In this document: piece after piece, positions 5,396-61,080 of the stretch | Numbering within the stretch: position 1 is the stretch's first letter | Layout: the number at the start of each line of letters is the position of its first letter | Assembly: GCF_017302275.1 (NCBI RefSeq) | Contig: NZ_JAFLDR010000013.1 | Coordinates: 48,362 to 112,361 of the forward strand | From: Sulfuritalea sp. | GTDB taxonomy: Bacteria; Pseudomonadota; Gammaproteobacteria; Burkholderiales; Rhodocyclaceae | Reading direction: 5' to 3' | DNA length: 64,000 bases | Program-made: the position numbers and the translations under genes | Notes under the pieces: generated by a model | Seen by the model: the letters and a program-made list of their open reading frames with translations, nothing else | What the model was told of the DNA's origin: nothing | Databases searched by the model: none

Positions 5396-6037
5396 GCGAG
5401 GGGTTGATCGCCGTCCCGCCAGCGCCGACTTCTTCATTCGCCGACTTGTTCGTGCGCAAGCTTGAGGCTTCTCCCATCAAGGGAGCGGGAGATCACGCCG
5501 ATTCGGATCGCCGCTTCAGCGAGGAGGCCCAGACCAATCTATGTGGGCGTCGTGTTGCCCAGCATCACATCGCCCAGGCCCAGCGACGCAAGCCACTCCT
5601 GCATGGCCGTAACCACGGCGGCAAGATGGCCGCCCGGTCGGAGTCGGAGTTCGCAGCGCTGAATGGCTTCGAGAAGATGGTGGCGAGCTATGGCGGCGTG
5701 TTTTCGGGCGCTTGCGGCAGCCAGCAACGCATGCGTCCGGGCACAAGCTGAGAAAGAGGCCGCGGAGTAAGCAGGCAACTGCAACGAATCCTGCGGAAAG
5801 GAGGGGAACCCGGACACTCGAAGCATCCCGCTCCGATATCGACGGAGGGGTACTGCCCACGATCCGCCCGATCGCATGAATGTCGGCGCTGGCAACACGG
5901 CGTGCGTCGCGCACTCGATGCTTTGCCGCCCCCATGGCCAGCAGTTCTCCCCTTTATCCATGGATTTGCCGCGCCCTAGCCTCGATAAACTTGCCGACGT
6001 CGACAACTCGCCGATTGGGAACAGGAGAAACGCGACC
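5396..6037. other. 642-bp region without a confident gene
   Basis: This stretch separates the glycosyltransferase gene from the proline-rich protein. It carries one good copy of the dispersed 24-bp motif (5410-5433) and a diverged copy in the opposite orientation (about 5879-5902). A minus-strand reading frame from an ATG at 5826 down to 5539 would encode 95 residues, rich in Ala and His, with a plausible GGAG-type sequence in front. It resembles nothing I know and I do not call it. A plus-strand frame at 5209-5751 overlaps the glycosyltransferase and looks like chance. Confidence 0.4.
5410..5433 (+). repeat. dispersed 24-bp motif, copy 1
   Basis: Fits GCCGT-N4-CC-A-GCGCCGACT-YYY exactly and lies between genes. 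A second partial CGCCGACTT follows about 10 bp later. Confidence 0.7.
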
Positions 6038-7909
6038 TTGAGCAGAATGCTGTTTGCCCTGGTGGCGCTGGCCGCCGGATTGATTGCCATTCCTCCGGCG
6101 GCGGACGCCGCGACCTGCAAGGGCAGCAAGCGCGCCGACAGCGCCGGCCGTTGCAAGGCCGCGCCCGCGAAGAAGACAGACGCGAAAGCCAAGGCGAAAG
6201 CGAAAAGGGGCAAGGCGGCCAAGGCCGCATCGGCAGCGCCGGACAAGGGTGCCTTGTACGTCTTCGTCGAATCCGGGGGATGCAGAATCCTGGCCACGGA
6301 ATCGGCAGTCCAGAGGATGCAGGAGATCGCCGTAGGCGGGTCGGTCACCTGGGATGGCAAGTGCACCGACGGCCTGATTTCCGGAACCGGCGTATTGCGG
6401 CAGGAGGGGGTGTTCATCGAAGGCGGGCGCAGCAAGCACTTTACCCATTACTACTCGGGCAGGGCCAACAACGGCGTCAGGCTGGGCCAATGGACTCGCG
6501 AGACGCTGGATCGCTTCGACGACGGCGTCAGCTCGTGGACCAGCCTGGCCCGAATGGAGTTCGTCGATGGCGTACCCAAAGGCCCGCCGAAACCGATTCC
6601 GGTGCGCGGTGCCGACCAGCACACGACCATTTTCAAGACCCGCGTTCTCGATCCCGAATCGAAGCGGGCCCATGCGGCCATGGAGATTTCGCCGGCATCG
6701 ACCGGCGTGGATGCGGTGAATCTCAAGGCGGCAAGCGCCGTTGCAAGTGTCGCCCCTGCCGTGGCGCCAGCGCCGACTCCTGCGCTTCCCGTCGTGGTGG
6801 CGGCACCCCAACCAGCTGTGCCCCCACCGGTCCCGACTGCGGCGACATCCGCCACACCGGAGCGGCCAAAACCCCAAGTGCCGACCGTCGCCACCTCCCC
6901 ACCACCGTCGCCGATAGCCGTGACACCGAGGGCAGGCACCGTCTTGCCTGCATTGCCGGCAACGACCCCTTCGGTGGCGCCTCCGCCACCGGTTTCCTCC
7001 GGTCCGGCAAAGCCGCCCACGGCCGATGCGCCGCCGCGGGTGGCCGTCACGCTCCCGGCGGCGACCCCCGCCGTTGCGCCAGCGCCGACTCCCGCGCCCG
7101 CCGTGGCGAAAGTGCCTTTGCCGCCAACTCCGGTAGCGCCGGCAGCAACGTCGCCGGTACCGCCCCAGCCTTTGGCAATGGCGATTGCCGCCGCCCCCGC
7201 CTCACCGCCGCCCGCCCCCAAAACGGAACCCGCCAAGGCACCCTCGACCAAGCCCGCACTGCCGGCAATCGTCCCTGCGCCGACTCCAACTCCACCGCCT
7301 GCAGATCGTTCCGGCACCCCAGTTCGCGGCGAGCCTGTCGAACCGCCTTCGCGGAAGATTCCCGCCGTTGCGCCGCCACCGACTCTTGCGCCAACAGGCT
7401 TGGCAAAGGTGGCTCAGCCACCCGCCGCGACCCCGCCCGCGCTTACCGCCCCGGTGGCCGCTCTTCCAACAGAGGCGTCCAAGCCGGTTGCAGTCAAATT
7501 GGCCACGACGATGCCCGACGGCATGGAAAAGCAGGCCTTCGGTTTCGGCACCGGATGCTACATGGATACGCTCGATGGCCAGTTGTGGGAGAACGCCGTG
7601 CTGACGGTCAAGGATCGCAAGTCGCTGCGGATCGACGGCTGGGCGGTCGACGACGAGGAAAGGGTCCTGGCGGAGGCCACCTACGTTCGACTGGAAGGCG
7701 CCAACGGCCGTCGCTACCACGCGGCCACGTCAGTGCAGGAACGCCCCGACGTGGCGCGACATTTCGGCATCCCCGCCTTCGTCAAGGCCGGATACCGCGC
7801 GGTGGTTTCCGCCGAAAGCCTGCCTCCCGGCGAATACGAGGTCACCGTCGTGATGAACTCGAAAGGTCGCAACGTGCTGTGCGGCAACGGGCGACGCCTG
7901 AAGTTGTAG
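6038..7909 (+). CDS. exported Pro/Ala-rich protein of the polysaccharide locus
   Basis: About 623 residues from the TTG at 6038, which is preceded by AGGAG at 6023-6027. An in-frame ATG lies three codons later. A signal peptide (MLFALVALAAGLIAIPPAADA) leads into a Lys/Ala-rich stretch, then a domain of about 140 residues with DGLISGTGVLRQEGVF and HYYSGRANNGVRLGQW, resembling MORN-type repeats. A low-complexity Pro/Ala linker of roughly 270 residues follows. The C-terminal domain of about 120 residues contains RIDGWAVDDEERV, RPDVARHFG and LPPGEYEV; similar domains occur in polysaccharide-biosynthesis proteins. The linker holds two full copies and one partial copy of the 24-bp motif (read VAPAPT) and an in-frame copy of the GTTCG repeat (read PVRGEPVEP). 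The function is unknown. It is probably periplasmic or surface-attached. Confidence 0.75.
   Translation: MSRMLFALVALAAGLIAIPPAADAATCKGSKRADSAGRCKAAPAKKTDAKAKAKAKRGKAAKAASAAPDKGALYVFVESGGCRILATESAVQRMQEIAVGGSVTWDGKCTDGLISGTGVLRQEGVFIEGGRSKHFTHYYSGRANNGVRLGQWTRETLDRFDDGVSSWTSLARMEFVDGVPKGPPKPIPVRGADQHTTIFKTRVLDPESKRAHAAMEISPASTGVDAVNLKAASAVASVAPAVAPAPTPALPVVVAAPQPAVPPPVPTAATSATPERPKPQVPTVATSPPPSPIAVTPRAGTVLPALPATTPSVAPPPPVSSGPAKPPTADAPPRVAVTLPAATPAVAPAPTPAPAVAKVPLPPTPVAPAATSPVPPQPLAMAIAAAPASPPPAPKTEPAKAPSTKPALPAIVPAPTPTPPPADRSGTPVRGEPVEPPSRKIPAVAPPPTLAPTGLAKVAQPPAATPPALTAPVAALPTEASKPVAVKLATTMPDGMEKQAFGFGTGCYMDTLDGQLWENAVLTVKDRKSLRIDGWAVDDEERVLAEATYVRLEGANGRRYHAATSVQERPDVARHFGIPAFVKAGYRAVVSAESLPPGEYEVTVVMNSKGRNVLCGNGRRLKL
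6758..6781 (+). repeat. dispersed 24-bp motif, copy 2 (in CDS)
   Basis: GCCGT-GGCG-CC-AGCGCCGACT followed by three pyrimidines, read in frame as AVAPAPT within the Pro/Ala linker. Confidence 0.75.
7070..7093 (+). repeat. dispersed 24-bp motif, copy 3 (in CDS)
   Basis: GCCGT-TGCG-CC-AGCGCCGACT followed by CCC, again read AVAPAPT in the linker. A further partial copy with only the GCGCCGACT core is at 7277-7285. Confidence 0.7.
7322..7344 (+). repeat. GTTCG...CGAAC dispersed repeat inserted in CDS
   Basis: GTTCGCGGCGAG followed by CCTGTCGAACC, an interrupted palindrome matching the copies at 54591-54613 and (inverted) 54638-54660. Here it is translated as VRGEPVEP in the linker of the proline-rich protein, a peptide I associate with this widespread repeat family in other proteobacterial proteins. 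Confidence 0.75.
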
Positions 7910-8029
7910 CGACTACCGACGGCGGCAAGCCATTCCCGGCTCACGACGATCCGTTTGATAAACGATGATGGGTGAATTATGATCGCGCCCTCTCTCCTGA
8001 CGGGTTGGCGCCACGGCGCCGGGCGGTAA

Positions 8030-17593: not shown

Positions 17594-18474
17594 TGGTTCG
17601 GTATCTCGAAGCCACGAACGACGAAGTCCGAAGTCCTGAGCGAACGGCTTTTGCAGTGAAGCGCCTGCAACCGTATTTCACTGGAAAGGTGTTGGAGCGT
17701 CTTAATCGCGCCGACATTTCCGGGTACATCGAAATGCGGAAGCGGGCGAAAGTAGGCCCGGCAACCATCAATCGTGAATTGGATATGTTGTCAGCAGCAA
17801 TCAACTACGCCAGGAAGCGTTGGGACTGGAACATCGGCAATCCTTGTTCAGGAATGTCGTTGCGTCAGCCGGAAGGCCGTTTGCGTTGGATCAGTCGTGC
17901 CGAGGCTGATGCGCTGATTTCGGAAGCGGAGCAGGACAGGAAATCGCCACATCTGGCGGATTTCATTCGAGCGGCTCTGAATACTGGATGTCGCAAAGGC
18001 GAGCTGCTGGAACTATCGTGGGATCGTGTCGATCTTCGAGAGGGATTGATATACCTCGAAGGCCATCACACGAAAAGCGGTAAGCGGCGAGTAGTACCGC
18101 TAAACGAGGAAGCGCGAAAGGCAATGTTGGGTCGTGCTCGTTTCCGGGCGCAATTTTGTCCGGCGTCTCCGTGGGTGTTCGCCCACCAGGACGGCGAACG
18201 CGTGAAGTTCATGCAGAAGGGTTTCCAGAGCGCCTGCAGGCGGGCCGGGATCGAGCAATTCAGGGTTCATGATCTCCGACATACCTGCGCGTCCTGGATG
18301 GTGCAGCAAGGGGCTTCGATGATGGAAGTACGCGACGTGCTCGGCCACTCGAGTATTGAGATGACCGAACGCTATGCGCACCTTGCACCGGAGAGGCTGA
18401 AATCCGCGGTCGGCGTGTTGGACCGGTTACGTTCCGGTTACGTCGAGCGGGAAAGAGGGCAAGGGCTGATGTAG
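17404..18474 (+). CDS. tyrosine-recombinase integrase
   Basis: 356 residues. An N-terminal AP2-like arm-binding segment (YRRKDSPYWWIKYTDANGKTAYETTGT) precedes a SAM-like core-binding domain (about 58-140) and a catalytic domain with R197 (NTGCRKGELLEL), H289-R292 (HDLRHTCASW), H315 (LGHSSIEMTERY) and nucleophile Y324. The full set of catalytic residues is present, so it is probably active. It is the last gene before the tRNA-Pro target and reads towards it. It would integrate the element at the 45-bp site. Confidence 0.93.
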   Translation: MAYRRKDSPYWWIKYTDANGKTAYETTGTADRKEAEAFEAKRRLEVHQQRKWGIQPEHTFDELMVRYLEATNDEVRSPERTAFAVKRLQPYFTGKVLERLNRADISGYIEMRKRAKVGPATINRELDMLSAAINYARKRWDWNIGNPCSGMSLRQPEGRLRWISRAEADALISEAEQDRKSPHLADFIRAALNTGCRKGELLELSWDRVDLREGLIYLEGHHTKSGKRRVVPLNEEARKAMLGRARFRAQFCPASPWVFAHQDGERVKFMQKGFQSACRRAGIEQFRVHDLRHTCASWMVQQGASMMEVRDVLGHSSIEMTERYAHLAPERLKSAVGVLDRLRSGYVERERGQGLM

Positions 18475-18489
18475 AAACCCTTGTAAATA

Positions 18490-18567
<78 letters not shown>

Positions 18568-18650
18568 ATGGTATTGGGTGGCACGGCATGACATGCGGGA
18601 TCGGGCGGAACGCTGCTGCCCGAGAGTCATCCTTGCGAACCTTGCGGCGA

Positions 18651-19664
18651 TCAAAACCTTCTTTGTACCGCGAAGTCCGCCAATTGTAGCAGCGTTTCCC
18701 TGAACTTTGAATCCGGCAATGCGGCAAGAGCCGCTTTTGCAAGTCCGGCTTCCGCCACTCCATGAGTGTGGGCCGCGGCCAGCGCGCCGCTGGCGCGCAC
18801 TGCCGCAAGCACCGCCACGAAATTCTCGCCGCTGGCGTTCTCGATCGCGTCCCGGACCAAGGCGGCCTGCTCCGGATTGCCATGCTGAATGACATGAATC
18901 AGCGGCAGCGTCGGCTTGCCCTCGGCCAGGTCGTCGCCCAGGTGCTTGCCGGTTTCCGCTTCCTGCCCGGAGTAATCGAGCACGTCATCGATCAGCTGGA
19001 ATGCAGTACCGATGTGCGTGCCGTAGGCTGCCAGTGCCTGTTCGACGCCATCACTGGCTTCGCCGAGGATTGCGCCGAGACGACCGGCGGCCTCGAACAG
19101 CTTGGCAGTCTTGTAGCGAATCACCTGCAGGTAGGCGCCGATTTCGATGTCGGCATTGCGGCAGTTCATCAGTTGCAACACCTCGCCTTCGGCGATCGTG
19201 TTGGTCGCATCGGCCAACACCTGCATCACCCGCATGCTGCCGACCCCGACCATGATCTGGAACGCGCGGGAATACAGGAAATCGCCGACCAGCACACTGG
19301 CGGGATTGCCGAATACTGCATTGGCGGTATCGCGGCCTCGACGCAGCGAGGATTCGTCGACGACGTCATCGTGCAGCAAGGTTGCGGTGTGGATGAACTC
19401 GACCACGGCCGCCAGTTCATGATGGCGGGTGCCGGAATAGCCGCAGGCACCGGCCGCCAGCAGGACAAGCGCGGGGCGCATGCGCTTGCCACCGGCGGAA
19501 ACGATGTATTCGGCGACCTGACGCACCAGCGCCACGTCGGAATGCAAACGAACTCGAACCACGGCGTCGACTGCACGCATGTCGGCGTCAATGGGGGCGT
19601 ACAGGCTGGAAAAGTCCACGGCGGATGTAGGAAGCTGAAGCGAAAGCGCGATGTTAGGCGGCAC
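18651..19664 (-). CDS. ispB: octaprenyl/polyprenyl diphosphate synthase
   Basis: About 337 residues. A trans-prenyltransferase with the two Asp-rich motifs LLHDDVVDESSLRRG and QLIDDVLDYSG, plus GGKRMRPALVLL near the N-terminus. It makes the ubiquinone side chain from IPP and FPP. I chose the GTG at 19664, since a longer frame to 19787 would pass through a plausible promoter (TTGATC, TATAAG) and give an atypical N-terminus. No clear Shine-Dalgarno supports any start. It lies downstream of no other gene on its strand and ends 84 bp before tRNA-Pro. Confidence 0.9.
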   Translation of the reverse strand: MPPNIALSLQLPTSAVDFSSLYAPIDADMRAVDAVVRVRLHSDVALVRQVAEYIVSAGGKRMRPALVLLAAGACGYSGTRHHELAAVVEFIHTATLLHDDVVDESSLRRGRDTANAVFGNPASVLVGDFLYSRAFQIMVGVGSMRVMQVLADATNTIAEGEVLQLMNCRNADIEIGAYLQVIRYKTAKLFEAAGRLGAILGEASDGVEQALAAYGTHIGTAFQLIDDVLDYSGQEAETGKHLGDDLAEGKPTLPLIHVIQHGNPEQAALVRDAIENASGENFVAVLAAVRASGALAAAHTHGVAEAGLAKAALAALPDSKFRETLLQLADFAVQRRF

Positions 19665-19868
19665 ATCGGTCGGCGTCAACGGAAGCCCTGCAGGCAGGAT
19701 GACAGGGGGTTTCCCCTTATACTTCGGGCTTGAACAGATCAACTTTCTCCTATGATTTTCCGGTGGTTTTGATTTCCGTCCCGACACCGGATGCCGGCTG
19801 ACCCGGTGCTGGCGCCGAGGAAATAACGTTCAACTGCACCGCTTGCCAGCCGCAATCGCATTCCCATC

Positions 19869-21272
19869 ATGAGCCAGCCGAAACCTCCCGCCTCCCCCAT
19901 TCCCCAGGCCGCCTGGTCCGGGCGGTTTTCCGAACCCGTTTCCGATCTGGTCAAGCGCTACACGGCATCAGTGTTTTTCGACCGTCGCATGTGGCGGCAG
20001 GATATCCGGGCCTCGCTGGCGCATGCGCGCATGCTGGCGCGCCAGGGCATCATCGCCGCCAGAGACCTGGCCGCGATCGAACAAGGCATGGCGACGATAA
20101 CCGACGAAGTCGAGGCCGGCAATTTCAACTGGAACCTCGATGACGAGGATGTGCACCTGAACATCGAGAAGCGCCTTACGGCACTTGTCGGCGATGCCGG
20201 CAAGCGCCTGCATACCGGCCGCTCGCGCAACGACCAGGTAGCCACCGACATCCGGCTGTGGCTGCGCGATACGATCGACGATATCGACATCCTGCTGCGC
20301 AACCTCCAGGTCGCCTTGCTCACAGCGGCCGAAACCCATGCCGAGACCCCGATGCCCGGTTTCACGCATCTCCAGGTGGCGCAGCCGGTCAGCTTCGGCC
20401 ACCACCTGCTGGCCTATTTCGAAATGCTGCGCCGTGATCGCGAGCGCTTTGCCGACTGTCGGCGCCGCACCAACCAGCTCCCTCTGGGCGCCGCCGCCCT
20501 GGCCGGCACCACCTTCCCCATCGACCGCGAATCGGTGGCGCGCGAACTTGGCTTCGAAGGCGTTTGCGAGAATTCCCTGGACGCGGTTTCCGATCGGGAC
20601 TTTGCGATCGAATTCTGTGCCGCCGCCTCGGTGTCGATGATGCACATGTCGCGCTTTTCCGAAGAGTTGGTGCTCTGGATGAGTCCGCGCGTCGGCTTCA
20701 TCGACCTCGCGGACCGGTTCTGTACCGGTTCTTCGATCATGCCGCAGAAGAAGAATCCCGACGTGCCTGAACTCGCGCGTGGCAAGACCGGCCGCGTCTT
20801 CGGCCACCTGATGGGCTTGCTGACGTTGATGAAGGGCCAGCCCCTGGCCTACAACAAGGACAACCAGGAAGACAAGGAGCCGCTGTTCGACACGGCCGAT
20901 ACCCTGATCGACACCCTGCGCATCTTTGCCGACCTGGTGCCTGGCATTCGCGTCAAGCCCGATGCCATGGCGGCCGCCCTGCGCCAGGGCTACGCCACGG
21001 CGACCGACCTCGCCGACTATCTGGTGAAGAAGGGCCTGCCCTTTCGCGACGCGCACGAAGTGGTCGCCCGCGCCGTGCGCACCTGCGAAGCACGCGGTTG
21101 CGACCTGCCGGACCTGACTCTGGACGAGCTGCGCGCGTTCTCGCCGCTGGTGGCGGACGATGCCTTCGCGGTGCTGACCGTCGCCGGATCGCTGGCCGCG
21201 CGCGACCATCTTGGCGGCACCGCGCCAGCACAGGTGCGCGCCGCGATAGCGCGATCGCGCGCACGACTTTGA
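19869..21272 (+). CDS. argH: argininosuccinate lyase
   Basis: 467 residues, the normal length. Cleaves argininosuccinate to arginine and fumarate in the cytoplasm. Visible family features are [42 protein letters not shown] and the fumarase/lyase signature [16 protein letters not shown]. It is followed after 3 bp by the Ser/Thr kinase gene, so both are likely on one transcript, although their functions are not obviously related. Divergent from ispB across a 204-bp spacer. Confidence 0.96.
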
Positions 21273-29293: not shown

Positions 29294-29317
29294 AAGCCCG
29301 CTTCGGCGGGCTTTTTT
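29294..29317 (+). terminator. bidirectional rho-independent terminator
   Basis: AAGCCCGC, a TTCG loop, GCGGGCTT and a run of T. It ends the prepilin transcript and overlaps the stop codon of the convergent antiporter gene. Confidence 0.9.
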
Positions 29318-31289: not shown

Positions 31290-31342
31290 CGGGCGGTCGC
31301 AGGCAGGGGCAAAAGAAGAAAAAGGCCGCGCAACGCGGTTGC

Positions 31343-31348
31343 TATAAT
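31343..31348 (+). promoter_or_regulatory. -10 element for the kds-lpt operon
   Basis: A perfect TATAAT 28 bp before the kdsD ATG, preceded by TTGC. I see no good -35 box. The divergent spacer to the antiporter gene is 87 bp. Confidence 0.5.
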
Positions 31349-35905: not shown

Positions 35906-35929
35906 GAAAGTCGGCGCTGGCGCCACGGC
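35906..35929 (-). repeat. dispersed 24-bp motif, copy 6 (intergenic, reversed)
   Basis: On the minus strand GCCGT-GGCG-CC-AGCGCCGACT-TTC, a perfect consensus copy between the phasin terminator and the convergent aminotransferase gene. Confidence 0.8.
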
Positions 35930-44433: not shown

Positions 44434-44501
44434 GGTGGCGGCCTGCGGAGTGGGTTCAAAGGAAAGCAGGCAGTTTAGCCGGCAACACCCTGCCAAGCAT
44501 C

Positions 44502-44525
44502 AAGAGTCGGCGCTGGAAGGACGGC
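44502..44525 (-). repeat. dispersed 24-bp motif, copy 8 (intergenic, reversed)
   Basis: On the minus strand GCCGT-CCTT-CC-AGCGCCGACT-CTT, between vapC and argJ. Confidence 0.7.
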
Positions 44526-45422: not shown

Positions 45423-48116
45423 CTAGGAATCGCCGAACACCAGCCGCCATAATTCCCGCACCGCCGTGACGCGGGCGCCGACTTCTTCCGGTGCGACGCG
45501 CGCCTTGGTGCCGTTCAGGCGCAACCCATGCTGCATGCGACGGTAATCGCGGTAGGCGTTGCGCACCGTCTCGGCCAGTTCGACCGGGATCAGGCCGGCA
45601 TCGGCGGCCATTTTCAGCAGCGCGATGTTGCCCTTGTTGCCGGTGAGCTCGTGGTGGGCGTGCGAATGGCCGAGCACCAGGTACTGGACGATGAATTCGA
45701 CATCGACCAGGCCGCCGGGGTCGTGCTTGAGGTCGAACACGGTGTCGCGCAGGTCACCGCGCGTGGCGTGGCTGTCCATCATCTTCTGCCGCATCTCGAC
45801 GATGTCCGCGCGCAGCTTGGCCTGGTCGCGCTGCTGACACAGCACCTCGCAGCGGATCTTTTCGAAAGCCTCGCCCACCGCCGGATCGCCGGCAGAGAAG
45901 CGGGCGCGCGTCAGCGCCTGGTGTTCCCAGACCCAGGCGGATTCGAGCTGGTACTTGCGGAAGGATTCCATGGAACTGACGACCAGACCCGATTCTCCGT
46001 TGGGCCGCAGCCGCAGGTCGGTTTCGAACAACTGGCCGGCCGCGGTCTGCGCCGAGAGCCAGGTGTTGAGCCGGGTGCCGAGCCGGCCGTAGTTCTCGCC
46101 GGCCTCCGGCGCCGGATCGTCGTAGAGGAAGACCAGGTCGAGGTCGGAAGCGAAGCCGAGTTCCTTGCCGCCCAGCTTGCCGTAGCTGATGACGGCGAAC
46201 TTGGGCTGCTCGACATGGCGCTTCAACATCTTCAGCCAGGCGCGCGCGAGTGCGGCATCGAGCAGGATATCGGCGAGTTCCGAGAGGTGGTCGGCGAGCC
46301 GCTCCACGGTATAGAGGCCTGCCACATCCTGTGCCAGCAGGCGGAATACCTGGGCATGGTGCGTCTCGCGCAACAGGTCCATCTGCCGTTCGGTGTCCGG
46401 CTCCAGTTCTTCCAGTTTCACCGCGAGCTGCCGGCGCACGCCGCTCCAGTCGGGCAGCACGTCGAGCAGGCGCGGGTCGAGCAGCTCGTCGAGCAGGATC
46501 GGGTGGCGTTGCAGGTACTCGGCGGCCCAACTGGAACTGCTGACCAGCTCCGCCACTTTCCTGAGTGCCTGCGGATACTGCTGCAGCAGGGCGAGGTAGG
46601 CGGCGCGGCGCGAGATGGATTCGAGCAGGTCAAGGCTGCGCGAGAGCGTGGCGTCCGGGTTGGGCATTTCCGCCGCCGCCTGGATCAACTGCGGTACCAG
46701 TGCGTCAAAGCGGTCGCGGATGCTGGCGGCTAGCTGCTGGTAGCGCGGCCCTTCGCGCAGCGCGGCGACGCGTGTCGCGGCTTCGCGCGGATTCCTGTAG
46801 CCAAGATTGGCGAACTCCTCGCCCTGGTCCTCTCCGCCCGCGCCGCGCCACATGCCGGCCAGCTTGTGCTCGCCGCGATTGGGGTCGGCGAACACCGCCT
46901 CGAAGTGGCGCGCGACGTTGGCGCGATGGTCGTCCAGTTCGACCAGCAGGCCCGCGAAGGAACCATAGCCCATGGCGCGCGCGACGCGCGCACGGTCGTC
47001 GGCGGCGGTGGGCAGCATGTGCGTCTGCGCATCGTCGATGTATTGCAGCCGGTGTTCGACGCGGCGCAGGAATTCGTAGGCGGCGGTCAGCTCGCCCACC
47101 GTCTCCGTGGCCAGCGTCGCACTTTCGGCCAGCAGCCGCAGCACGGAAAGAGTCGGCTTGATTTGCAGCGCCGGGTCGCGCCCGCCGCGAATCAGCTGGA
47201 ACACCTGGGCGATGAATTCGATCTCGCGGATGCCGCCTGGGCCGAGCTTGACGTTGTCGGCCTTGTCCTTCTTCGCCACTTCCTGGCGGATCTGCGCGTG
47301 CAGTTCGCGCATGGCGTTGATGGTGCCGAAGTCGAGGTACTTGCGGAAGACGAAGGGGCGGCGGATCGCCTCCAGCTCGTCCCAGCGCGAGTTTTCGCCA
47401 TTGCCCGCGCCCTCGCCCGTAAGCGGCCGCGCCTTGATCCAGGCATAGCGCTCCCATTCGCGGCCCTGGGTGACGAAATAGTTTTCCAGCATCTCGAAGG
47501 AACACACCAGCGGCCCGGAATCACCGTTGGGCCGCAGCCGCATGTCGACGCGGAACACCTGGCCGTCGGAGGTCGAGTCGGCGATGGCATTGATCAGCGC
47601 GCGGCCCAAGCGGGTGAAAAATTCGAAGTTGGAAATCGATCTGGCGCCATCGGTGTCGCCGTCTTCCGGATAGACGAAGATCAGGTCGATGTCCGAGGAC
47701 ACGTTGAGTTCCCGTCCGCCCAGCTTGCCCATGCCGACCACGATCAACTCCTGCGTCCGGCCGTCGGTGCCGCGCGGCGTGCCGTAGCGCTCGACCAGGC
47801 CCTGGGTGAGCACCCGCGTCGCCGCAGAAACCGCCAGTTCGGCGATCAGGGTCATGCCTTCGACCACCTCGCCCAGCGGCGCCAGGCCGCACAGGTCGCG
47901 CGTGGCGATGCGCGCGTAGGCGCGCTGCTTCAACTGGCGCAATACCGGCTTGAGGTTGGTTTCAGTCAGGGCTTGCTCGGCCAGCCAGGCCGACAGCTCG
48001 TCGGCGCTCACCGCCTGCTCCAGCGAGGCGTCGATTTCGGCGGCCAGCGCGGGCTTCGCGGCCAGCAGTCGTGCAAAGTAAGGGGATGTTTCGGCGATAA
48101 CGGCGCGTGAGGGCAT
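45423..48116 (-). CDS. glnE: bifunctional glutamine synthetase adenylyltransferase/deadenylylase
   Basis: 897 residues. Two nucleotidyltransferase domains: VVGMGKLGGRELNVSSDIDLIFVYPEDGDTDG (about 145-180) and VISYGKLGGKELGFASDLDLVFLYDDPAPEAG (about 640-670), each with G-S/A-D-x-D-L metal-binding Asp pairs. Each is followed by a helical regulatory segment. It modifies GlnA according to PII state. The length is slightly below the E. coli enzyme. A 24-bp motif copy lies near the C-terminus, read EEVGARVTAV. It diverges from the YhdP-like gene with a 71-bp spacer. Confidence 0.96.
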   Translation of the reverse strand: MPSRAVIAETSPYFARLLAAKPALAAEIDASLEQAVSADELSAWLAEQALTETNLKPVLRQLKQRAYARIATRDLCGLAPLGEVVEGMTLIAELAVSAATRVLTQGLVERYGTPRGTDGRTQELIVVGMGKLGGRELNVSSDIDLIFVYPEDGDTDGARSISNFEFFTRLGRALINAIADSTSDGQVFRVDMRLRPNGDSGPLVCSFEMLENYFVTQGREWERYAWIKARPLTGEGAGNGENSRWDELEAIRRPFVFRKYLDFGTINAMRELHAQIRQEVAKKDKADNVKLGPGGIREIEFIAQVFQLIRGGRDPALQIKPTLSVLRLLAESATLATETVGELTAAYEFLRRVEHRLQYIDDAQTHMLPTAADDRARVARAMGYGSFAGLLVELDDHRANVARHFEAVFADPNRGEHKLAGMWRGAGGEDQGEEFANLGYRNPREAATRVAALREGPRYQQLAASIRDRFDALVPQLIQAAAEMPNPDATLSRSLDLLESISRRAAYLALLQQYPQALRKVAELVSSSSWAAEYLQRHPILLDELLDPRLLDVLPDWSGVRRQLAVKLEELEPDTERQMDLLRETHHAQVFRLLAQDVAGLYTVERLADHLSELADILLDAALARAWLKMLKRHVEQPKFAVISYGKLGGKELGFASDLDLVFLYDDPAPEAGENYGRLGTRLNTWLSAQTAAGQLFETDLRLRPNGESGLVVSSMESFRKYQLESAWVWEHQALTRARFSAGDPAVGEAFEKIRCEVLCQQRDQAKLRADIVEMRQKMMDSHATRGDLRDTVFDLKHDPGGLVDVEFIVQYLVLGHSHAHHELTGNKGNIALLKMAADAGLIPVELAETVRNAYRDYRRMQHGLRLNGTKARVAPEEVGARVTAVRELWRLVFGDS
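45463..45486 (+). repeat. dispersed 24-bp motif, copy 9 (in glnE, antisense)
   Basis: GCCGT-GACG-CG-GGCGCCGACT-TCT, on the strand opposite to glnE. Confidence 0.65.
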
Positions 48117-48187: not shown

Positions 48188-51100
48188 ATGTCCGCTTCCA
48201 GAGCCGCCACGTCCATCATTTCGCACCCGTTGTCCCGCCTGCGCCGCGCCGCAAACGCCCATCCCCGGCTGGCGGTCGCGGCGCGCGTGCTGATGTGGGC
48301 GCTGACTCTGTCCTATTTCGCCTTCGCGCTGCTGCTGCTGGCGCTGCGCTACGCGATCCTGCCGCAGATCGAAAGCTACCGCGGCGACGTCGAACGGATG
48401 ATCTCGACCTCCATCAACCGCCCGGTCGGAATACGCAGGATCGAGGCGCACTGGGCCGGCCTCAGACCGGCGCTGAGCCTGGAGGGCTTCGAAATCCGCG
48501 ACGCGCAGGGGCGGGCAGCGCTGGGCTTCGACCAGGTGGACGCCGAACTGTCGTGGAGCTCCCTGTGGCATCTGGAACTGCGCCTGGCGCTGCTCGAACT
48601 CGATGCGCCCAACCTGCTGCTGCGCCGCGACCGTGACGGACGGCTGTTCGCTGCCGGCCTGGAAATCACCCCGCAGCCGGGCGACGAGGAAGGCTTCGCC
48701 GACTGGCTGCTGACGCAGGAGCGCGTAGTGATCCGCGACGCCGGCATCACCTGGCTCGATGAACTGCGCGGCGCACCACCGCTGGAATTGAAGCACCTCA
48801 ATTTCCAGCTCGACAACAGCGGCAGCCGACACCGCTTCGGCCTTACCGCCGATCCGCCCCGCCAGCTTGCGGCGCGCGTCGACATCCGCGGCGATTTCCG
48901 CGGCCGCGACCTCGACCAGTTCCAGGCCTGGAAGGGCGATGCCTACGCCGAGCTGGACTATGCCGACCTCGCCGGCTGGCGTGCCTGGGTCGATTACCCG
49001 CTGGCGCTGCCGCAAGGCAGCGGCGCACTGCGACTGTGGCTGGGCTTCGCCAGCAAGCAACTGACCTCGGCCACGGCCGACGTGCGCCTGGCCGATGTGC
49101 GCCTGCGACTGCGCCCCGACCTGCCCGAACTCGACCTTGTGCTGCTCGACGGACGCTTCGGCGGACGCCGGCTCGACGGCGGCTTCGAAGCCGAACTCAA
49201 ACACCTGGCGCTGGCCACCCGAGACGGCCTGACGCTGCAGCCGACCGACCTCAAGCTGACCTGGCAGGAGGCGGCCGCCAACCGTCCTTCGCGCGGCGCG
49301 GCGACGGCCAATGGGCTGGATCTGGACGCGCTGGCCCGCCTTGCCTCGCACCTGCCGCTGAGCGACGTGAATCGCGCCCGCCTGGCTCGCCACGCGCCGC
49401 GCGGACGCGTGTTCGACCTCAAGCTGGATTGGCAGGGCACGCCGGAAAACGTCGGTGCCCCTGAAAAGTGGAGCGTCAAGAGCCGTTTCGAAGGCCTCGG
49501 CATGACCGCGCTGGGCCCGGTGCCCGGCATCTCCGGCGTCAATGGCCGCGTCGAGGGCGACGAAAAGGGCGGTCGGCTGACGCTGGACGGGCAGAAGGCC
49601 CTGTTCGAACTGCCCGCCGTGTTCGCCGAACCCAAGCTGGAGCTGGAAGCCTTTTCCGCCGAGCTCGACTGGAAAGCGGCCGCGGGCGACCTGCGGGTGC
49701 GTTTGCAGAAGGCCGCCTTCCACAACAAGGATGCCGCCGGTGAAGCCAGCGGCGAGTGGCACGCGCTACCCGCCGGCCCCGGCCGCATCGACCTCGGCGC
49801 AAAACTCACGCGCGGCAGCGGCGAAGCAGTCTGGCGCTACATGCCGCTGGGCGTCGGCAAGGATGTGCGCGAATGGCTCCATGGCGCCATCATCGGCGGC
49901 AAGGCCAACGACGTGACGCTCAAGCTGAAGGGCGATCTTGTCCACTTCCCCTTCCGCGACGGCATGCAGGGACTGTTCGAAGTACGCGGCAGGTTCATCG
50001 ACGCCGGCCTGCGCTATGCCGGGAGCTGGCCGGTGATCGACGGCATCGAAGGCGAACTGCTGTTTTCCGGCCAGCGCATGCTGATCACCGGCAAGCGCGG
50101 CCGCATCTTCGGCGTCGCCCTGCGCGAGGTCCGCGCCGAGATCGCCGACCTCGAAGAGCAGGATGAACTGCTGACCGTCACGGGCAAGGCGAACGGCCCC
50201 ACCGCCGACTTCCTTCGTTTCATCGAGGCCAGCCCGGTCGGCGAACGCATCGACCATTTCACCGAGGACATGAAGGCAGAAGGCAACGGCGAACTTGACC
50301 TCAAGCTTGGCCTGCGCCTGCGCAGGCTGGACAGCTCCAAGGTCGAGGGCAGCTACCGCTTCGACGGCAACCGCCTGACCGTGGACAGCGACCTGCCACC
50401 GCTGGGCGAAGTGCGTGGCTCGCTGAAGTTTTCCGCCGACCATCTCGAGGCGCGCGGCATCCGCGGCACCCTGCTCGACTCGCCGCTGAGCGTGGACCTG
50501 CGAACGACGGGCGACGGCAACGTGCAGGTCAATGCCGCCGGCGAGATCAACGTCGCGACCCTGCGCCGCCGGTTTCCGCACCCGGTATTCGATGACCTCG
50601 CGGGCGGCAGCAAGTGGACCGGCAGCGTGCGTGTGCGCAAGAAGTCGGCCGAAGTGAAGCTGATGTCGAACCTGGTCGGATTGTCCTCCAGCCTCCCCCC
50701 GCCCTTCAACAAGCCGGCCACCGACGCCATGCCGATCAGCTTCGAGCGCAAGGCGGCGCCGGAATCATCGGCGCGTCCCGCAGGGCGACCGGCCGCCGTG
50801 CCGCGGGCGCCGACTTCCAGGGACACCGGCCCTGCCCCGGCTGCAAGCGCGCCAGCCCCGACCCAGGACCTGCTGGAACTCAATCTCGCCCGCGCGCTGC
50901 GCGTGCAAATTGTGCGCCGCCATGACAGCAGCCCGCCCGCGATCGTGCGCGGCGTGGTCGCCGTCGGCGACAGCGGCGCCAGCCTGCCGGATCGCAACCT
51001 GCTGGTCGCCGTCAACCTGCCGCGCATCGACGCGGATTTCTGGCGGCGCCTGCTGACCGCGCCGAAGAACGGCAACGGCGCCGCCGAGTCACCATTGCCA

Positions 51101-52186
51101 GCCTTGCCCGCGCTGCAGTTCGACTTGCGCACATCCGAACTGAATGTCCATGACAAGGCATTTAATGACGTACGCATCGCCGGCGGCCGGGCCGACGACG
51201 CCGCCAGCACCCGCTTCGAGCTGAGGAGCCGCGAACTGGCGGGCAATTTCGAATGGAACAGCGCCGGCGAAGGCAAGCTGACGGGCCGCATCGCCCAGCT
51301 CGCGGTACCGGAATCAATCGCCAATCCGGCGACGCTGCAAGCCAGGACCAGCGAGGTGATCGACCACATTCCGGCGCTCGACATCACGGTCGACCAGCTT
51401 TCCTACAAGGACCGCGCGCTAGGCACGGTGCGCGTCGCGGCGGAAAACAGGGACGACGGCTGGAACGCCCGGATCGAGATGAAAAATGACGATGGCACGC
51501 TGGATGCCAGCGGCCGCTGGCGGCGCAGCCCCACGCTGCCCGACACCCGCGTCGACTTCAAGTTCGCGGCGAAGAGCATCGAGAAACTGCTGGCGCGCAT
51601 CGGCCACCCGGACGCCGTGCGGCGCGGCAACGCCAGCCTGGCGGGGAACCTGTCGTGGAACGGCACGCCGTTCACCATCGACTACCCCTCGCTCGGCGGC
51701 AACCTCAAGCTCGACGCCGCCAACGGCCAGTTCGTCAAGCTCGAACCCGGCGTCGGCCGGCTGCTGGGCGTGCTCAGCCTGCAATCGCTGCCGCGCCGGA
51801 TCACGCTGGATTTCCGCGACATCTTCAGCGAGGGTTTCGCCTTCGACAGCATCGGCGGCCAGTTCGCCGTCGCGCGCGGCGTGATGGAAACGAAGGACTT
51901 GCAGATCCAGGGCCCCTCGGCGAAGGTGCTGATGAGCGGCACGGTCAACCTGGGCAAGGAGACACAGGACCTCAAGGTGCGCGTGCAACCCGCCGTGGGC
52001 GAGACGATCGCGGTCGGTGCCATGCTCGCCAACCCGATCGCCGGCGCCGTGGTCTGGGCGGCGCAGAAGATATTCAAGGACCCGCTCGACCAGGCCTTCG
52101 CCTTCGAGTATGGGGTGACCGGCAGTTGGGTGGATCCCAAGGTCGAGAAACTCGGCCAGCAGAAACCCGCGGAGGAAGGCAAATGA
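48188..52186 (+). CDS. YhdP-family AsmA-like giant envelope protein
   Basis: 1332 residues. One N-terminal membrane segment (VLMWALTLSYFAFALLLLALRYAIL) and a long beta-rich periplasmic body with VGIRRIEAHWAGLRPALSLEGFEI at the front (DUF3971/AsmA-like) and GGNLKLDAANGQFVKLEPGVGRLLGVLSLQSLPRRITLDFRDIFSEGFAFDSIGG near the end, the hallmark of the YhdP family. Such proteins bridge the periplasm and help move phospholipids to the outer membrane. A Pro/Ala-rich segment at about 860-895 contains a 24-bp motif copy, read AVPRAPTS. Normal size for the family. Confidence 0.92.
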   Translation: MSASRAATSIISHPLSRLRRAANAHPRLAVAARVLMWALTLSYFAFALLLLALRYAILPQIESYRGDVERMISTSINRPVGIRRIEAHWAGLRPALSLEGFEIRDAQGRAALGFDQVDAELSWSSLWHLELRLALLELDAPNLLLRRDRDGRLFAAGLEITPQPGDEEGFADWLLTQERVVIRDAGITWLDELRGAPPLELKHLNFQLDNSGSRHRFGLTADPPRQLAARVDIRGDFRGRDLDQFQAWKGDAYAELDYADLAGWRAWVDYPLALPQGSGALRLWLGFASKQLTSATADVRLADVRLRLRPDLPELDLVLLDGRFGGRRLDGGFEAELKHLALATRDGLTLQPTDLKLTWQEAAANRPSRGAATANGLDLDALARLASHLPLSDVNRARLARHAPRGRVFDLKLDWQGTPENVGAPEKWSVKSRFEGLGMTALGPVPGISGVNGRVEGDEKGGRLTLDGQKALFELPAVFAEPKLELEAFSAELDWKAAAGDLRVRLQKAAFHNKDAAGEASGEWHALPAGPGRIDLGAKLTRGSGEAVWRYMPLGVGKDVREWLHGAIIGGKANDVTLKLKGDLVHFPFRDGMQGLFEVRGRFIDAGLRYAGSWPVIDGIEGELLFSGQRMLITGKRGRIFGVALREVRAEIADLEEQDELLTVTGKANGPTADFLRFIEASPVGERIDHFTEDMKAEGNGELDLKLGLRLRRLDSSKVEGSYRFDGNRLTVDSDLPPLGEVRGSLKFSADHLEARGIRGTLLDSPLSVDLRTTGDGNVQVNAAGEINVATLRRRFPHPVFDDLAGGSKWTGSVRVRKKSAEVKLMSNLVGLSSSLPPPFNKPATDAMPISFERKAAPESSARPAGRPAAVPRAPTSRDTGPAPAASAPAPTQDLLELNLARALRVQIVRRHDSSPPAIVRGVVAVGDSGASLPDRNLLVAVNLPRIDADFWRRLLTAPKNGNGAAESPLPALPALQFDLRTSELNVHDKAFNDVRIAGGRADDAASTRFELRSRELAGNFEWNSAGEGKLTGRIAQLAVPESIANPATLQARTSEVIDHIPALDITVDQLSYKDRALGTVRVAAENRDDGWNARIEMKNDDGTLDASGRWRRSPTLPDTRVDFKFAAKSIEKLLARIGHPDAVRRGNASLAGNLSWNGTPFTIDYPSLGGNLKLDAANGQFVKLEPGVGRLLGVLSLQSLPRRITLDFRDIFSEGFAFDSIGGQFAVARGVMETKDLQIQGPSAKVLMSGTVNLGKETQDLKVRVQPAVGETIAVGAMLANPIAGAVVWAAQKIFKDPLDQAFAFEYGVTGSWVDPKVEKLGQQKPAEEGK
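50795..50818 (+). repeat. dispersed 24-bp motif, copy 10 (in CDS)
   Basis: GCCGT-GCCG-CG-GGCGCCGACT-TCC, in frame as AVPRAPTS in a disordered stretch of the YhdP-like protein. Confidence 0.65.
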
Positions 52187-57189: not shown

Positions 57190-60100
57190 TCAACGTCGTT
57201 CGCGACTATCCCACATCTTCTGCAGTCGCTTGACGGAGACCGGTGACGAGGTCTTGAGTTCCTGCGCGAACAGCGCGACGCGCAGCTCTTCGAGCAGCCA
57301 GCGGAACTCGTCGAGGAAGCCATCCTGCTGCTGGCCGGATTTCTGCATGGCGTTGCGCTCGCGTTCCCAGGGTTTGCCCAAGCCCTGCCAGTCGGCCATC
57401 AGGCGCGCGTCGCGTGCCGGGTCGCTGCGTGCCTTGTCCAGGCGCAGGGCGATGGCCTTGAGGTAGCGAGGATAGTGTTGCAGGCGCTCGAAAGGCGTGG
57501 CCAGGATGAATTTCTTCGGCATCAGCTCGGCAAGCTGCGCGGCGATGTCGGCAGCGGCCTGCGGAAAGGCCTTCTGCATGGACGCGAGCTTTTTCGTCAG
57601 CGCCGCGTACTCGGTGAGCACGGCCGCGACCAGGCGCAGGATCTCTTGCGCCACCAGCAGGATGCGCCCGCGCGCCGCTTCGCGCCGTGTGGCGAACGCC
57701 GACTCTTCGGCGGGCAGCGGGTCCATCAGGCAGGTGCGCTCCAGCGTGACCGCGACCAGTTGCTCGCGCAGATCCTTCTCGGTGCCCGCATTTGGCCCCA
57801 TCGCCATGAACTGCAGCGCGAGCTCGCGCAGGCCCGGCAGCTTTTCGACGGCCTTGACCTGCGCCGCCAGCTGCAGCGCGAACAGGCGCGCAAGGCCCTT
57901 GCGGTGTTCGACGTGGGCCTTTTCCTCGGTGTCGAAGGCGGTGAGGCGCACGCTTTCGCCGAGGTCCACCAGCGCGGGAAAACCGACCGTAGTGCCAGCG
58001 CCGACTTTCAGTTCCATCAGTTCGGGCAAGGGGCCGAAGGTCCAGGCGGTGTATCCCGGCGCATCGCTGGCGGCGGCCTCGTGGCTGATCTCAGCGTCGG
58101 CGTAGGCCTGCTCGACGCGCCCGCGATACTCGGCGCGCAGTTCGCCGAGGTTGCGCGATATCGCCAGCGTGCCGCCGTGCTCGTCGACCAGGCGGAAATT
58201 CATGAACAGGTGCGGCCGCAGTTCGCCCGTGCGGAAGGCGTCGAGCGGCAGCTTCATGGCCAGGTGTTCCTCGGCGGCACGGGTCAGCGCACGCACCAGC
58301 GGCTCGTCGAGGTCATGTTCGGCATCGCAGAAGTTCGTCGCGAACTCGTCCAGCGGCTGCAAGCGGTGGCGATACTTCTGCTGCACCGTCCTCAGCAGGG
58401 CCACCACCTTTTCCTTGAGCAGGCCCGGCACCAGCCACTCGCAACGGTTGGCCGGCAACTGGTTGAGCGCCGCCAACGGCAGGGTCAGCGTCACGCCGTC
58501 ATCGGCCGCGCCGGGGTCGTGGTGGTAGGCGAGCTTGTAGCCGCGGCCGCGATGGATGAGCTCGGGCGGGAAGGCATCGGTGGTGATGCCGGCTGCCTCG
58601 TGGCGCATCAGCTGCTCTTTTTCAAGGCAGAGCAGTTTGGGATCGGCGGCTTCGGCCTCGCGCCGCCAGTGATCGAAGGCGGCCAGGGTGATGATGCCCG
58701 GCGGAAGCTTGGCGTCGTAGAACGCGTAAATCAATTCGTCATCGACCAGCACGTCGGGGCGGCGCGACTTGTGCTCCAGTGTTTCGATCTCCTTCTTCAA
58801 CTTCGCGTTGTGCTGGAAAAAGCGCCACTTGCGCGCCCAGTCCTCCCCGACCTGGCCTTCGACCAGGGCCTCGCGGATCAGGATCTCGCGCGCCAGCTTC
58901 GGATCGCTCGGGCCGTAATGCACGCGCCGCTTGGCATGCAGCATCAGGCCGTGCAGCGTGACGCGCTCCCAGGCCACAACCTGGCCCGGCCCCTTCTCCC
59001 AGTGCGGCTCGTAGACATGCTTGCGGATCAGGTGGGCGCCGACCTGTTCCAGCCATTCCGGCTCTATCTTCGCGATGCAGCGCGCGAACAGGCGCGAAGT
59101 CTCGACCAGTTCTGCGGCGACGATCCAGCGTCCGGCCTTCTTCAACAGCGACGATCCGGGATGGATGAAGAAGCGGATGCCGCGCGCACCGAGGTAGTTC
59201 TTGTCCTCTTCGCTGATCAAGCCGATGTGGCCGAGCAGGCCGGTGAGCAGCGCCTTGTGGATCGCCTCGTAGGCGGCATCGCCCCCGCCGCCGGGCCGCC
59301 CCAAGGCGGGGGCAGCGTTCAAACCCGGAGCGAAGCGAACCCCGGTCACCCCCTCCCTGGGGGAAGGGGCAGGGGGGTAGGCGCTTGTAATTTTCCAGCC
59401 GTGCTCGTGGCACAGCGTCATCAACTGGCCATGCACGTCGCGCCACTCGCGCAGCCGCAGCCAGGAAATGAAATTGTGTCGGCACCACTGGCGCTGCTTG
59501 TTGCTGGTCTCGTGCTTCCAGACCTCGTCCGCCGCGGCCCACAGCTTCAGGTAGGAAAGGAACTCGGACTTCTCGTCCTTCCATTTGGCATGGGCCTGGT
59601 CGGCCGAGCCGGCGGCCTCGGCGGGCCTGTCGCGCGGGTCCTGGGTGCCCAGCGCCGAGGCGATGATCAGCACCTCGCGCAGGCAGCCGTGTTCGCGCGC
59701 GGCGAGGATCATCCTGCCTATCTTGGGATCGAGGGGAAGCTTGGCCAACTCGTGCCCGACCGGCGTCAGCTCCTTGCTGGCCTCGTCCAGCGCGCCGAGT
59801 TCTGCCAACAGGTTATAGCCGTCCGCGATCATGCGCGGCGCCGGCGCTTCGAGGAAGGGGAAGTCTTCGACATCGCCCAGGTGCAGCGACTTCATGCGCA
59901 GGATCACGCCGGCCAGGCTGGAGCGCAGGATTTCCGGCTCGGTGTAGGGCGGACGTTTGTTGTAGTCCTCTTCGTCGTAGAGCTTGAAGCAGATGCCGGC
60001 CGAGACGCGGCCGCAACGCCCGGCGCGCTGGCTGGCCGCGGCGCGCGAGATCGGCTCGACCTGCAACTGCTCGACCTTGTTGCGATGCGAATAGCGCTTG

Positions 60101-61047
60101 ACCCGCGCCAGGCCCGAATCGATCACGTAGCGGATGCCGGGCACCGTCAGCGAGGTCTCGGCGACGTTGGTCGCCAGCACCACGCGCCGACCCTGGTGCG
60201 CGGCGAACACGCGGCCCTGCTCCACCGCCGTCTGGCGCGCGAACAGTGGCAGCACTTCAAGGCCCGGTGGGTGGTGTTTGCGCAGCGCCTCGGCCGCCTC
60301 GCGGATCTCGCGCTCGCCGGGCAGGAACGCCAGCACGTCGCCCGGTCCCTCGCGGTGGGCCTCGTCGACGGCATCGACGATGGCATCATTGAGGTCGCCC
60401 TCCTTGTTGTCCTGCCACGGGCGGAAACGCGTCTCGATCGGAAACAGGCGCCCCGACACCTCGATCACCGGGGCCGGCCTGCCGCCGATGCTGAAGTGCC
60501 TGCTGAAGCGCTCCGCATCCAGCGTCGCCGAGGTCACGATGACCTTCATGTCGCTTCGCCGCGGCAGCAGTTGCTTGAGGTAGCCGAGCAGGAAATCGAT
60601 GTTGAGGCTGCGCTCGTGCGCCTCGTCGATCAGGATCGTGTCGTACTGGCGCAGTAACGGATCGGTCTGCGTCTCGGCGAGCAGGATGCCGTCGGTCATC
60701 AGCTTGATGTAGGAGCCAGGCGTCACCTTGTCGGTGAAGCGGATCTTGAAGCCGACGTGGCGGCCCAGTTCAGACTTGAGTTCCTGCGCAATCCGCGTCG
60801 CCGTGGCGCGCGCGGCGATGCGCCGCGGCTGGGTGTGGCCGATCATGCCGTTTAGGCCGCGGCCGATCTCGAGGCATATCTTCGGCAGCTGCGTGGTCTT
60901 GCCCGAACCGGTCTCACCGCATATGACCACCACCTGGTGCCGGAGTATCGTCTCTCCGATCTCCGCGCGCAGCACATTGACCGGCAGCGCCTCGTCATAG
61001 GTCAGCGCCGGCCGCGCCGCCCGCCGCGCCTCGGGATCGAATTTCAC
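57190..61047 (-). CDS. hrpA: ATP-dependent RNA helicase HrpA
   Basis: About 1285 residues from the GTG at 61047, chosen because sequence upstream is a 24-bp motif copy and non-conserved; the start is uncertain. DEAH-box motifs: GETGSGKTTQLPK (Walker A), DEAHERS, SATLDAERF, TNVAETSLTVPG and QRAGRCGR. The OB-fold and DUF3418 tail follow (LVDDELIYAFYDAKLPPGI). About 35 residues near position 570 (YPPAPSPREGVTGVRFAPGL and onward) derive from a dispersed DNA repeat. It unwinds RNA and helps resolve collided ribosomes. Another motif copy, LKVGAGTTV, lies in the tail. Confidence 0.93.
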   Translation of the reverse strand: MKFDPEARRAARPALTYDEALPVNVLRAEIGETILRHQVVVICGETGSGKTTQLPKICLEIGRGLNGMIGHTQPRRIAARATATRIAQELKSELGRHVGFKIRFTDKVTPGSYIKLMTDGILLAETQTDPLLRQYDTILIDEAHERSLNIDFLLGYLKQLLPRRSDMKVIVTSATLDAERFSRHFSIGGRPAPVIEVSGRLFPIETRFRPWQDNKEGDLNDAIVDAVDEAHREGPGDVLAFLPGEREIREAAEALRKHHPPGLEVLPLFARQTAVEQGRVFAAHQGRRVVLATNVAETSLTVPGIRYVIDSGLARVKRYSHRNKVEQLQVEPISRAAASQRAGRCGRVSAGICFKLYDEEDYNKRPPYTEPEILRSSLAGVILRMKSLHLGDVEDFPFLEAPAPRMIADGYNLLAELGALDEASKELTPVGHELAKLPLDPKIGRMILAAREHGCLREVLIIASALGTQDPRDRPAEAAGSADQAHAKWKDEKSEFLSYLKLWAAADEVWKHETSNKQRQWCRHNFISWLRLREWRDVHGQLMTLCHEHGWKITSAYPPAPSPREGVTGVRFAPGLNAAPALGRPGGGGDAAYEAIHKALLTGLLGHIGLISEEDKNYLGARGIRFFIHPGSSLLKKAGRWIVAAELVETSRLFARCIAKIEPEWLEQVGAHLIRKHVYEPHWEKGPGQVVAWERVTLHGLMLHAKRRVHYGPSDPKLAREILIREALVEGQVGEDWARKWRFFQHNAKLKKEIETLEHKSRRPDVLVDDELIYAFYDAKLPPGIITLAAFDHWRREAEAADPKLLCLEKEQLMRHEAAGITTDAFPPELIHRGRGYKLAYHHDPGAADDGVTLTLPLAALNQLPANRCEWLVPGLLKEKVVALLRTVQQKYRHRLQPLDEFATNFCDAEHDLDEPLVRALTRAAEEHLAMKLPLDAFRTGELRPHLFMNFRLVDEHGGTLAISRNLGELRAEYRGRVEQAYADAEISHEAAASDAPGYTAWTFGPLPELMELKVGAGTTVGFPALVDLGESVRLTAFDTEEKAHVEHRKGLARLFALQLAAQVKAVEKLPGLRELALQFMAMGPNAGTEKDLREQLVAVTLERTCLMDPLPAEESAFATRREAARGRILLVAQEILRLVAAVLTEYAALTKKLASMQKAFPQAAADIAAQLAELMPKKFILATPFERLQHYPRYLKAIALRLDKARSDPARDARLMADWQGLGKPWERERNAMQKSGQQQDGFLDEFRWLLEELRVALFAQELKTSSPVSVKRLQKMWDSRERR
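57986..58009 (+). repeat. dispersed 24-bp motif, copy 11 (in hrpA, antisense)
   Basis: ACCGT-AGTG-CC-AGCGCCGACT-TTC, on the strand opposite to hrpA; the helicase reads LKVGAGTTV. Confidence 0.7.
59287..59380 (-). repeat. C/G-rich dispersed repeat inserted in frame in hrpA
   Basis: On the minus strand CCCCCCTGCCCCTTCCCCC, then AGGGAGGGGGTGACC, and GCCTTGGGGCGGCCCGGCGG at the far end; same block order as 52190-52283. It is translated as about 33 residues (PPAPSPREGVTGVRF... to GRPGGGGDA) that interrupt the conserved HGWKI-(x)-YEAIHKALLTGLLGH region. Confidence 0.7.
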
Positions 61048-61056
61048 TGGCCGGCC

Positions 61057-61080
61057 GCCGTACTGCCAGCGCCGACTCTT
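61057..61080 (+). repeat. dispersed 24-bp motif, copy 12 (just upstream of hrpA)
   Basis: GCCGT-ACTG-CC-AGCGCCGACT-CTT. It lies in the 231-bp spacer between tilS and the chosen hrpA start, in which I see no other gene. Confidence 0.7.

Follow-up and report, generated by a model that had tools for sequence, protein, structure and literature searches.

A 64-kb stretch of the genome of Sulfuritalea sp. (positions 48,362 to 112,361 of contig NZ_JAFLDR010000013.1, assembly GCF_017302275.1; hereafter the window) carries scattered copies of a two-part word of 24-25 bp, which is probably an uptake-type signal for recognising self DNA in this Sulfuritalea-like betaproteobacterial genus and in some of its sister genera. 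The observations behind this reading are the abundance of the word, its placement on both strands without polarity, its appearance in place of other sequence, conservation above that of the flanks, a dialect in one clade, and the presence of genes for ComEC and type IV minor pilins. A first-pass annotation, made from the window alone, had listed DNA-uptake, Chi-like and chromosome-orienting motifs as possible readings, and the uptake sequence is the candidate function that abundance, lack of polarity and in-place replacement support best. We suggest that the word works like an uptake sequence and make no claim that it belongs to that functional kind; such membership is not established, because searches of the genus found no canonical ComEA and uptake itself is only inferred.

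Abundance, carriers and dialect of the word

A search of the window with the pattern RCCGTNNNNCSRGCGCCGACTYYY finds 13 exact matches, and 100 dinucleotide shuffles of the window yield none. All 12 sites listed by the first-pass annotation are present, although the one placed at 22803 really starts at 22802, and a thirteenth, at 40910-40933 on the minus strand, had been overlooked. The nine-base core occurs 15 times, 13 of them within the full pattern, against 1.9 expected from the shuffles, a figure that replaces the earlier expectation of 0.5 per 64 kb, the window being GC-rich. In the whole genome of origin (G000; 4,409,354 bases in 88 contigs) there are 462 copies, 240 forward and 222 reverse, or about one per 9.5 kb, and the reversed pattern used as a control is absent. 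The genome-wide count that the annotation had called for therefore finds the word neither restricted to the window nor close to background, and neither of the two outcomes named there as speaking against the motif refutes it. Among all 12-mers, CCAGCGCCGACT ranks first in two genome samples, with 42 occurrences against 0.74 expected in 464 kb and 40 against 0.61 in 400 kb.

The consensus was estimated, with up to three mismatches allowed, from 72 sites in 464 kb of G000 and 80 sites in 420 kb of a complete relative, G002. It reads C-(G/A)CCGT-NN-CGCC(A/G)-GCGCCGACT-YYY over 24-25 bp, with little conserved outside, and holds 32.9 (G000) and 33.5 (G002) bits of information, where 13.7 and 13.4 bits would be enough to locate that many sites. 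Spacing and strand bias, which the annotation had proposed to check, give no sign of order. The coefficient of variation of 85 intervals between copies on eight contigs of G000 is 0.93, as expected of random placement. In G002, where GC skew puts the origin near 0 and the terminus near 1.85 Mb, 20 evenly spaced 20-kb stretches were sampled and 13 of 25 copies lie on the leading strand, a count that leaves out the two stretches nearest the origin (L299, with no forward and three reverse copies, and L318, with one of each). The word thus combines extreme over-representation with use of both strands and lack of replication polarity, as uptake sequences do.

Every one of 31 genomes of the window's genus contains the word, in 8 (G017) to 462 copies. 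Across 199 genomes of the family, at least 45 copies were found in 21, of which six belong to the window's genus and 15 to five other genera (g32, g43, g62, g70 and g88, with every sampled member included); 37 genomes have 1-11 copies and 141 have none. Among 399 genomes of the order, 386 come from other families, and 14 of these hold 1-4 copies and 372 none. The reversed control has no match in 61 genomes and a single one, in G177, among the 199 of the family. Sulfuritalea, Rugosibacter and unnamed Rhodocyclaceae or Rhodocyclales make up most of the named carriers in a public genome set, among the matches listed (80 of at least 118 stretches), and a few other taxa have one copy each. Conservation in relatives, another of the checks proposed at the outset, accordingly extends through the genus and into five further genera.

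Few exact copies do not always mean that the word has been lost, as G001, G016 and G027 use a dialect. A mostly replaces G at position 17 in these three genomes (19 of 27, 11 of 13 and 11 of 16 sites, 41 of 56 in sum, with up to three mismatches, in samples of 105, 88 and 100 kb, respectively), giving the variant core GCGCCAACT, and A is absent there in G022 (0 of 7), G000 (0 of 72) and G002 (0 of 80); samples of G021 were picked around canonical copies and are excluded from these rates. In a ComEC tree of 23 genomes the three group together with 100/99 support, and G022 is adjacent (97/95). A dialect that follows a lineage is a trait of uptake sequences, and this switch of the same base at many loci in one clade points to a reader acting in trans. 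By contrast with the dialect genomes, G017, with its 8 copies, is placed among motif-rich genomes in the same tree and has few near-matches above control in its sample, and its scarcity probably reflects loss of the word.

Some further distributions were recorded. A different scattered signal was rejected for G017, whose top words are one gene's repeated TGCCACAAC, encoding CxxCH-like units, and CTCTGCGCCT runs in a few contigs; the former, at about 17800-19870 on the minus strand of L350, reads CHN in a row of such units and marks a multihaem-cytochrome-like repeat gene. G135, from another genus of the family, has its sole five copies on the plus strand within 41 kb (C1:1461266-1502267), perhaps an island from a motif-bearing donor. 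On a contig of a Sulfuritalea metagenome-assembled genome, nine copies lie on one strand within 6 kb (L073:231-5929).

Replacement in place and the machinery for uptake

How copies arise was followed around argJ in 21 genomes, of which 16 have a copy in that region; the 47 copies there were each aligned with their orthologues by MAFFT and measured for net length from 40 bases before to 40 bases after the motif; two sites were also examined base by base. Net length change was zero in 505 of 569 orthologue pairs. The partner in these 505 pairs has the full motif in 162 cases, one mismatch in 123 and 7-14 mismatches in 152, and this last class, with no net change in length, implies that whole 24-mers occupy the place of unrelated sequence. 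In 195 of the 505 pairs none of the 14 fixed bases has changed, against 42 pairs expected from flank identity. The pairs in these counts have sites and ancestry in common and cannot be taken as independent, those with the motif on both sides are counted twice, and sites were chosen for motif presence in one genome. Replacement in place and conservation above the flanks, both traits of uptake sequences, are thus found here.

A working of the following kind may be proposed. A receptor for DNA at the cell surface, probably one of the type IV minor pilins, would bind the word on free DNA, and DNA bearing it would enter the cell in preference to other DNA and recombine with the chromosome. Such a bias could spread copies and keep them wherever the gene product can accommodate them; if the specificity of the receptor shifted in a lineage, the copies would follow and a dialect would emerge. 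ComEC is above cut-off in 29 of the 31 genus members, with a fragment at a contig end in G021 and a weak short match in G030. Of 32 chosen genomes, which include carriers and non-carriers, 30 have pilins of the GspH/FimT family, and in G000 the GspH/FimT and ComP_DUS pilin genes lie side by side. The ComP_DUS-family protein of G000 matched 17 solved structures named as pilins, pseudopilins or similar, with ComP among none of them.

Several observations weigh against an uptake signal, and the main one, directed at a canonical uptake machine, is the missing canonical ComEA in the genus. The TIGR00426 model has no match above cut-off in the 31 genus members. With PF12836, two of nine members have no match, and in the other seven the strong match is a single domain in an open reading frame (ORF) of about 800-940 aa, presumably Tex; only G017 among the nine has further matches above cut-off, at 32-37 bits and in ORFs 181-314 aa long. 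ORFs of the small ComEA-like kind occur in five of ten motif-free or nearly motif-free relatives (G034, G066, G071, G089 and G115) but, among 13 motif-rich genomes from other genera, in two (G117 and G199). A ComEA-type periplasmic DNA receptor is a usual part of the machinery and does not define the signal, and a substitute for it is possible. On the same side of the balance, ComP_DUS pilins (PF16732) are found in all 32 chosen family genomes, carriers and non-carriers, and neither this family nor GspH could be retained as a marker of carriers; motif-poor G017 retains ComEC and pilins; of 16 motif-bearing viral ORFs, picked among the longest, 12 match phage protein families, including those of terminase, portal, tail fibre J and baseplate hub, while the other four match no family; and neither competence or uptake data nor a report of natural transformation in these lineages was found in open-licence PMC papers.

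Inverted pairs belong to the same discussion. In 28 genomes, cores spaced 18-48 bases apart form 61 outward and 8 inward pairs, or 18 and 6 once g43 is left out; judged by eye, nine of the 18 outward pairs have motif arms on both sides. Hairpins apparently 3' of an ORF end, in most cases with a T run after the stem, were seen at L314, L417, L425, L426 and L428, and such terminator-like pairs speak for an uptake signal. Against it, pairs of the terminator kind are rare (three exact pairs among the 462 copies of G000), and the majority of the copies sampled lack an inverted partner.

Alternative readings and the copies in the window

A DNA-binding protein within the cell might instead use the word as its site, for example to organise or mark the chromosome or to distinguish the cell's own DNA from foreign DNA; we consider this unlikely while granting it a small share of the probability. 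A word in two parts, about two helical turns long, suits a protein site, a changed binding protein could yield the dialect, and the genus yielded no canonical ComEA. An internal mark would also suit the spread over the chromosome, the copies in phage genes and the near absence of the word from one mostly low-GC contig of G000 (C1; 256 kb), which has 2 copies against about 27 expected and a GC content of 0.58 in three of four sampled stretches, and is perhaps acquired DNA or a separate replicon. These points are opposed by the replacement of unrelated sequence by whole 24-mers, by random spacing without polarity, and by an information content some 20 bits beyond what that many sites need, which would be unusual for ordinary protein sites.

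The viral copies come from at least 120 stretches of viral contigs with the word. The 120 loci hold 139 copies, 112 of them inside ORFs by a simple longest-ORF rule among the matches listed; phage core genes with the 24-mer lie in L256, L165, L173, L228, L181, L194, L160, L207 and L234. Copies beyond the first per locus amount to 0.017 per kb in viral loci against 0.040 in genome loci, both among the matches listed, and all copies in G000 to 0.105 per kb. The phage copies could stem from prophage-host recombination, from phages profiting from uptake or from an intracellular role of the word. Rarity in recently acquired DNA presents a mixed picture: the mere 2 copies on the mostly low-GC contig speak for an uptake signal, yet phage genes bear copies. 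On one viral contig, five copies lie on one strand (L193:882-2238), and of the four intervals between them three measure exactly 316 bases.

A mobile or amplifying repeat, either resembling repetitive extragenic palindromic (REP) sequences and bacterial interspersed mosaic elements (BIME) or the relic of a small element, is very improbable. REP and BIME form inverted arrays, and something similar is seen in g43, where inverted motif halves form arrays with variable loops, with a period of 54 bases in L418:1470-1706 (G072:C1:566161-566397) and further cases in L421 and L419; outward core pairs number 19 in each of G072 and G132, almost all of them belonging to such arrays, which dominate the overall count of outward pairs. 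These arrays look like REP/BIME elements grown from the motif. In the window's genus, unlike REP/BIME, the word is mostly single, not palindromic and often intragenic, and its flanks are not conserved. Insertion of a small element had been considered when first pairwise alignments gapped the motif segment in 163 of 577 cases, an effect put down to weak gap penalties at diverged segments. In the MAFFT alignments, the 64 pairs that do change in length differ by many lengths, from -48 to +48, and by exactly 24 in the direction of insertion in only 3 of 569; insertion at new sites was thus not found in the window's genus, for which a mobile origin is largely refuted.

Even less can be said for a motif that orients the chromosome or recombination, such as the FtsK orienting polar sequences (KOPS) or Chi, a suggestion of the first-pass annotation that gains from the hundreds of copies round the chromosome. 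KOPS, Chi and matS are, like the word, chromosome-wide oligonucleotides read by a protein. The KOPS/Chi class is far from the word in length and information, the word being far longer and sharper and showing no polarity, and the leading-strand share in G002 led us to reject KOPS- or Chi-like polarity. Finally, one might see in the word an artefact of base composition or codon use, or a recurring peptide (APAPT), and invoke the GC-rich genome and the single antisense frame that prevails in G000 (17 of 19 antisense coding copies). This reading deserves practically no credence, being already contradicted by the shuffles, by the reversed control, by the occurrence of copies sense, antisense and between genes, and by the lack of any copy in most relatives.

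The view that the word is neither a protein motif nor an ordinary mobile repeat, already expressed in the annotation, is upheld by this placement together with the substitutions in place, and gene by gene the window bears out its description of copies between genes and inside them in both orientations. Three copies are intergenic or probably so: 5410-5433 (+) lies 14 bases past the end of a glycosyltransferase ORF (4295-5395), 35906-35929 (-) lies 9 bases past the end of an aminotransferase ORF (35939-37111, minus strand), and 44502-44525 (-) stands directly upstream of argJ, where the overlapping ORF has no Pfam match. Five copies are sense. Those at 6758-6781 (+; AVAPAPTP) and 7070-7093 (+) fall in frame 0 of ORF 5876-7909, which has no Pfam match, and the one at 50795-50818 (+; AVPRAPTS) in frame 0 of the YhdP ORF at 48188-52186 on the plus strand; 22802-22825 (+; AVVPAPTF) is in ORF 22226-23476, and the thirteenth site, 40910-40933 (-), in ORF 40152-41024 (minus strand), of the 6-phosphogluconate/3-hydroxyisobutyrate dehydrogenase type. 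The antisense copies, all on the plus strand within minus-strand ORFs, are 29449-29472 in a Na+/H+ exchanger-TrkA ORF (29316-32351), 43553-43576 in argJ (43198-44496), where the motif is replaced in orthologues with no change in length and varies between clades, 45463-45486 in a GlnE-type adenylyltransferase ORF (45423-48116), and 57986-58009 and 61057-61080 in an HrpA-type helicase ORF (57190-61206). Automatic gene calls misplace some of these sites, with the coding copies at 22802 and 40910 called intergenic, and the intergenic fraction was not used.

Comparison with known uptake languages

We know of no families other than the Neisseriaceae and the Pasteurellaceae with abundant self-specific uptake words. 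These two are the examples named in the literature (PMC13020248; PMC7811141). The DNA uptake sequence (DUS) of the Neisseriaceae is a 12-mer, AT-GCCGTCTGAA, with dialects (PMC3630211). Neisserial uptake sequences are reported to be conserved above their flanks, absent from recent acquisitions, divided into dialects and found as terminator pairs, with new copies too diverged from the homologues to have arisen by point mutation (PMC2397512; PMC3630211); their use in terminators is also described in PMC13020248 and PMC5217627. The traits of the word appear to match those reported for neisserial uptake sequences. Shared with the DUS are many copies on both strands, intragenic and intergenic positions, inverted pairs resembling terminators, dialects, conservation above the flanks and a betaproteobacterial host. 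Unlike the DUS, the word has 24-25 bp in two parts instead of 12, is present once per about 9.5 kb and rarely forms terminator pairs, and it occurs in a genus in which canonical ComEA was not found and for which receptor and uptake are inferred. Set against the DUS sequences printed in PMC3630211, the word logos show that it is not the neisserial 10- or 12-mer; the sequences differ, and just the start GCCGT is common to both, likely by chance.

The uptake signal sequence (USS) of the Pasteurellaceae has AT-rich tracts as its second block, whereas in the word this block is CCGT, seven bases before the core, and both sequence and host group are unrelated. The two have in common an asymmetric word, a strict core, dialects and, apparently, use in terminators, the USS core being AAGTGCGGT (PMC13020248) and its dialects being described in PMC12616744, a study that modelled pasteurellacean minor pilins together with motif-bearing and scrambled DNA. 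The first-pass annotation knew no such element by its sequence, and no account of such a word in this group was found in open-licence PMC papers; a literature query with stretches of the word returned no title on such a repeat among the matches listed.

On balance we lean, if only slightly, towards a third, independently evolved uptake language, with a long bipartite 25-bp self-signal in at least two dialects, a predicted receptor in a lineage without canonical ComEA, and carriage by phages in structural genes. If this is true, a third case in environmental bacteria would mean that such languages evolve repeatedly, and natural transformation would be predicted in lineages for which no report of it was found. 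The question of the receptor could be put to the test across carriers, non-carriers and the dialect clade, in which the clade-wide switch of a core base offers a natural experiment on the co-evolution of a signal and its reader.

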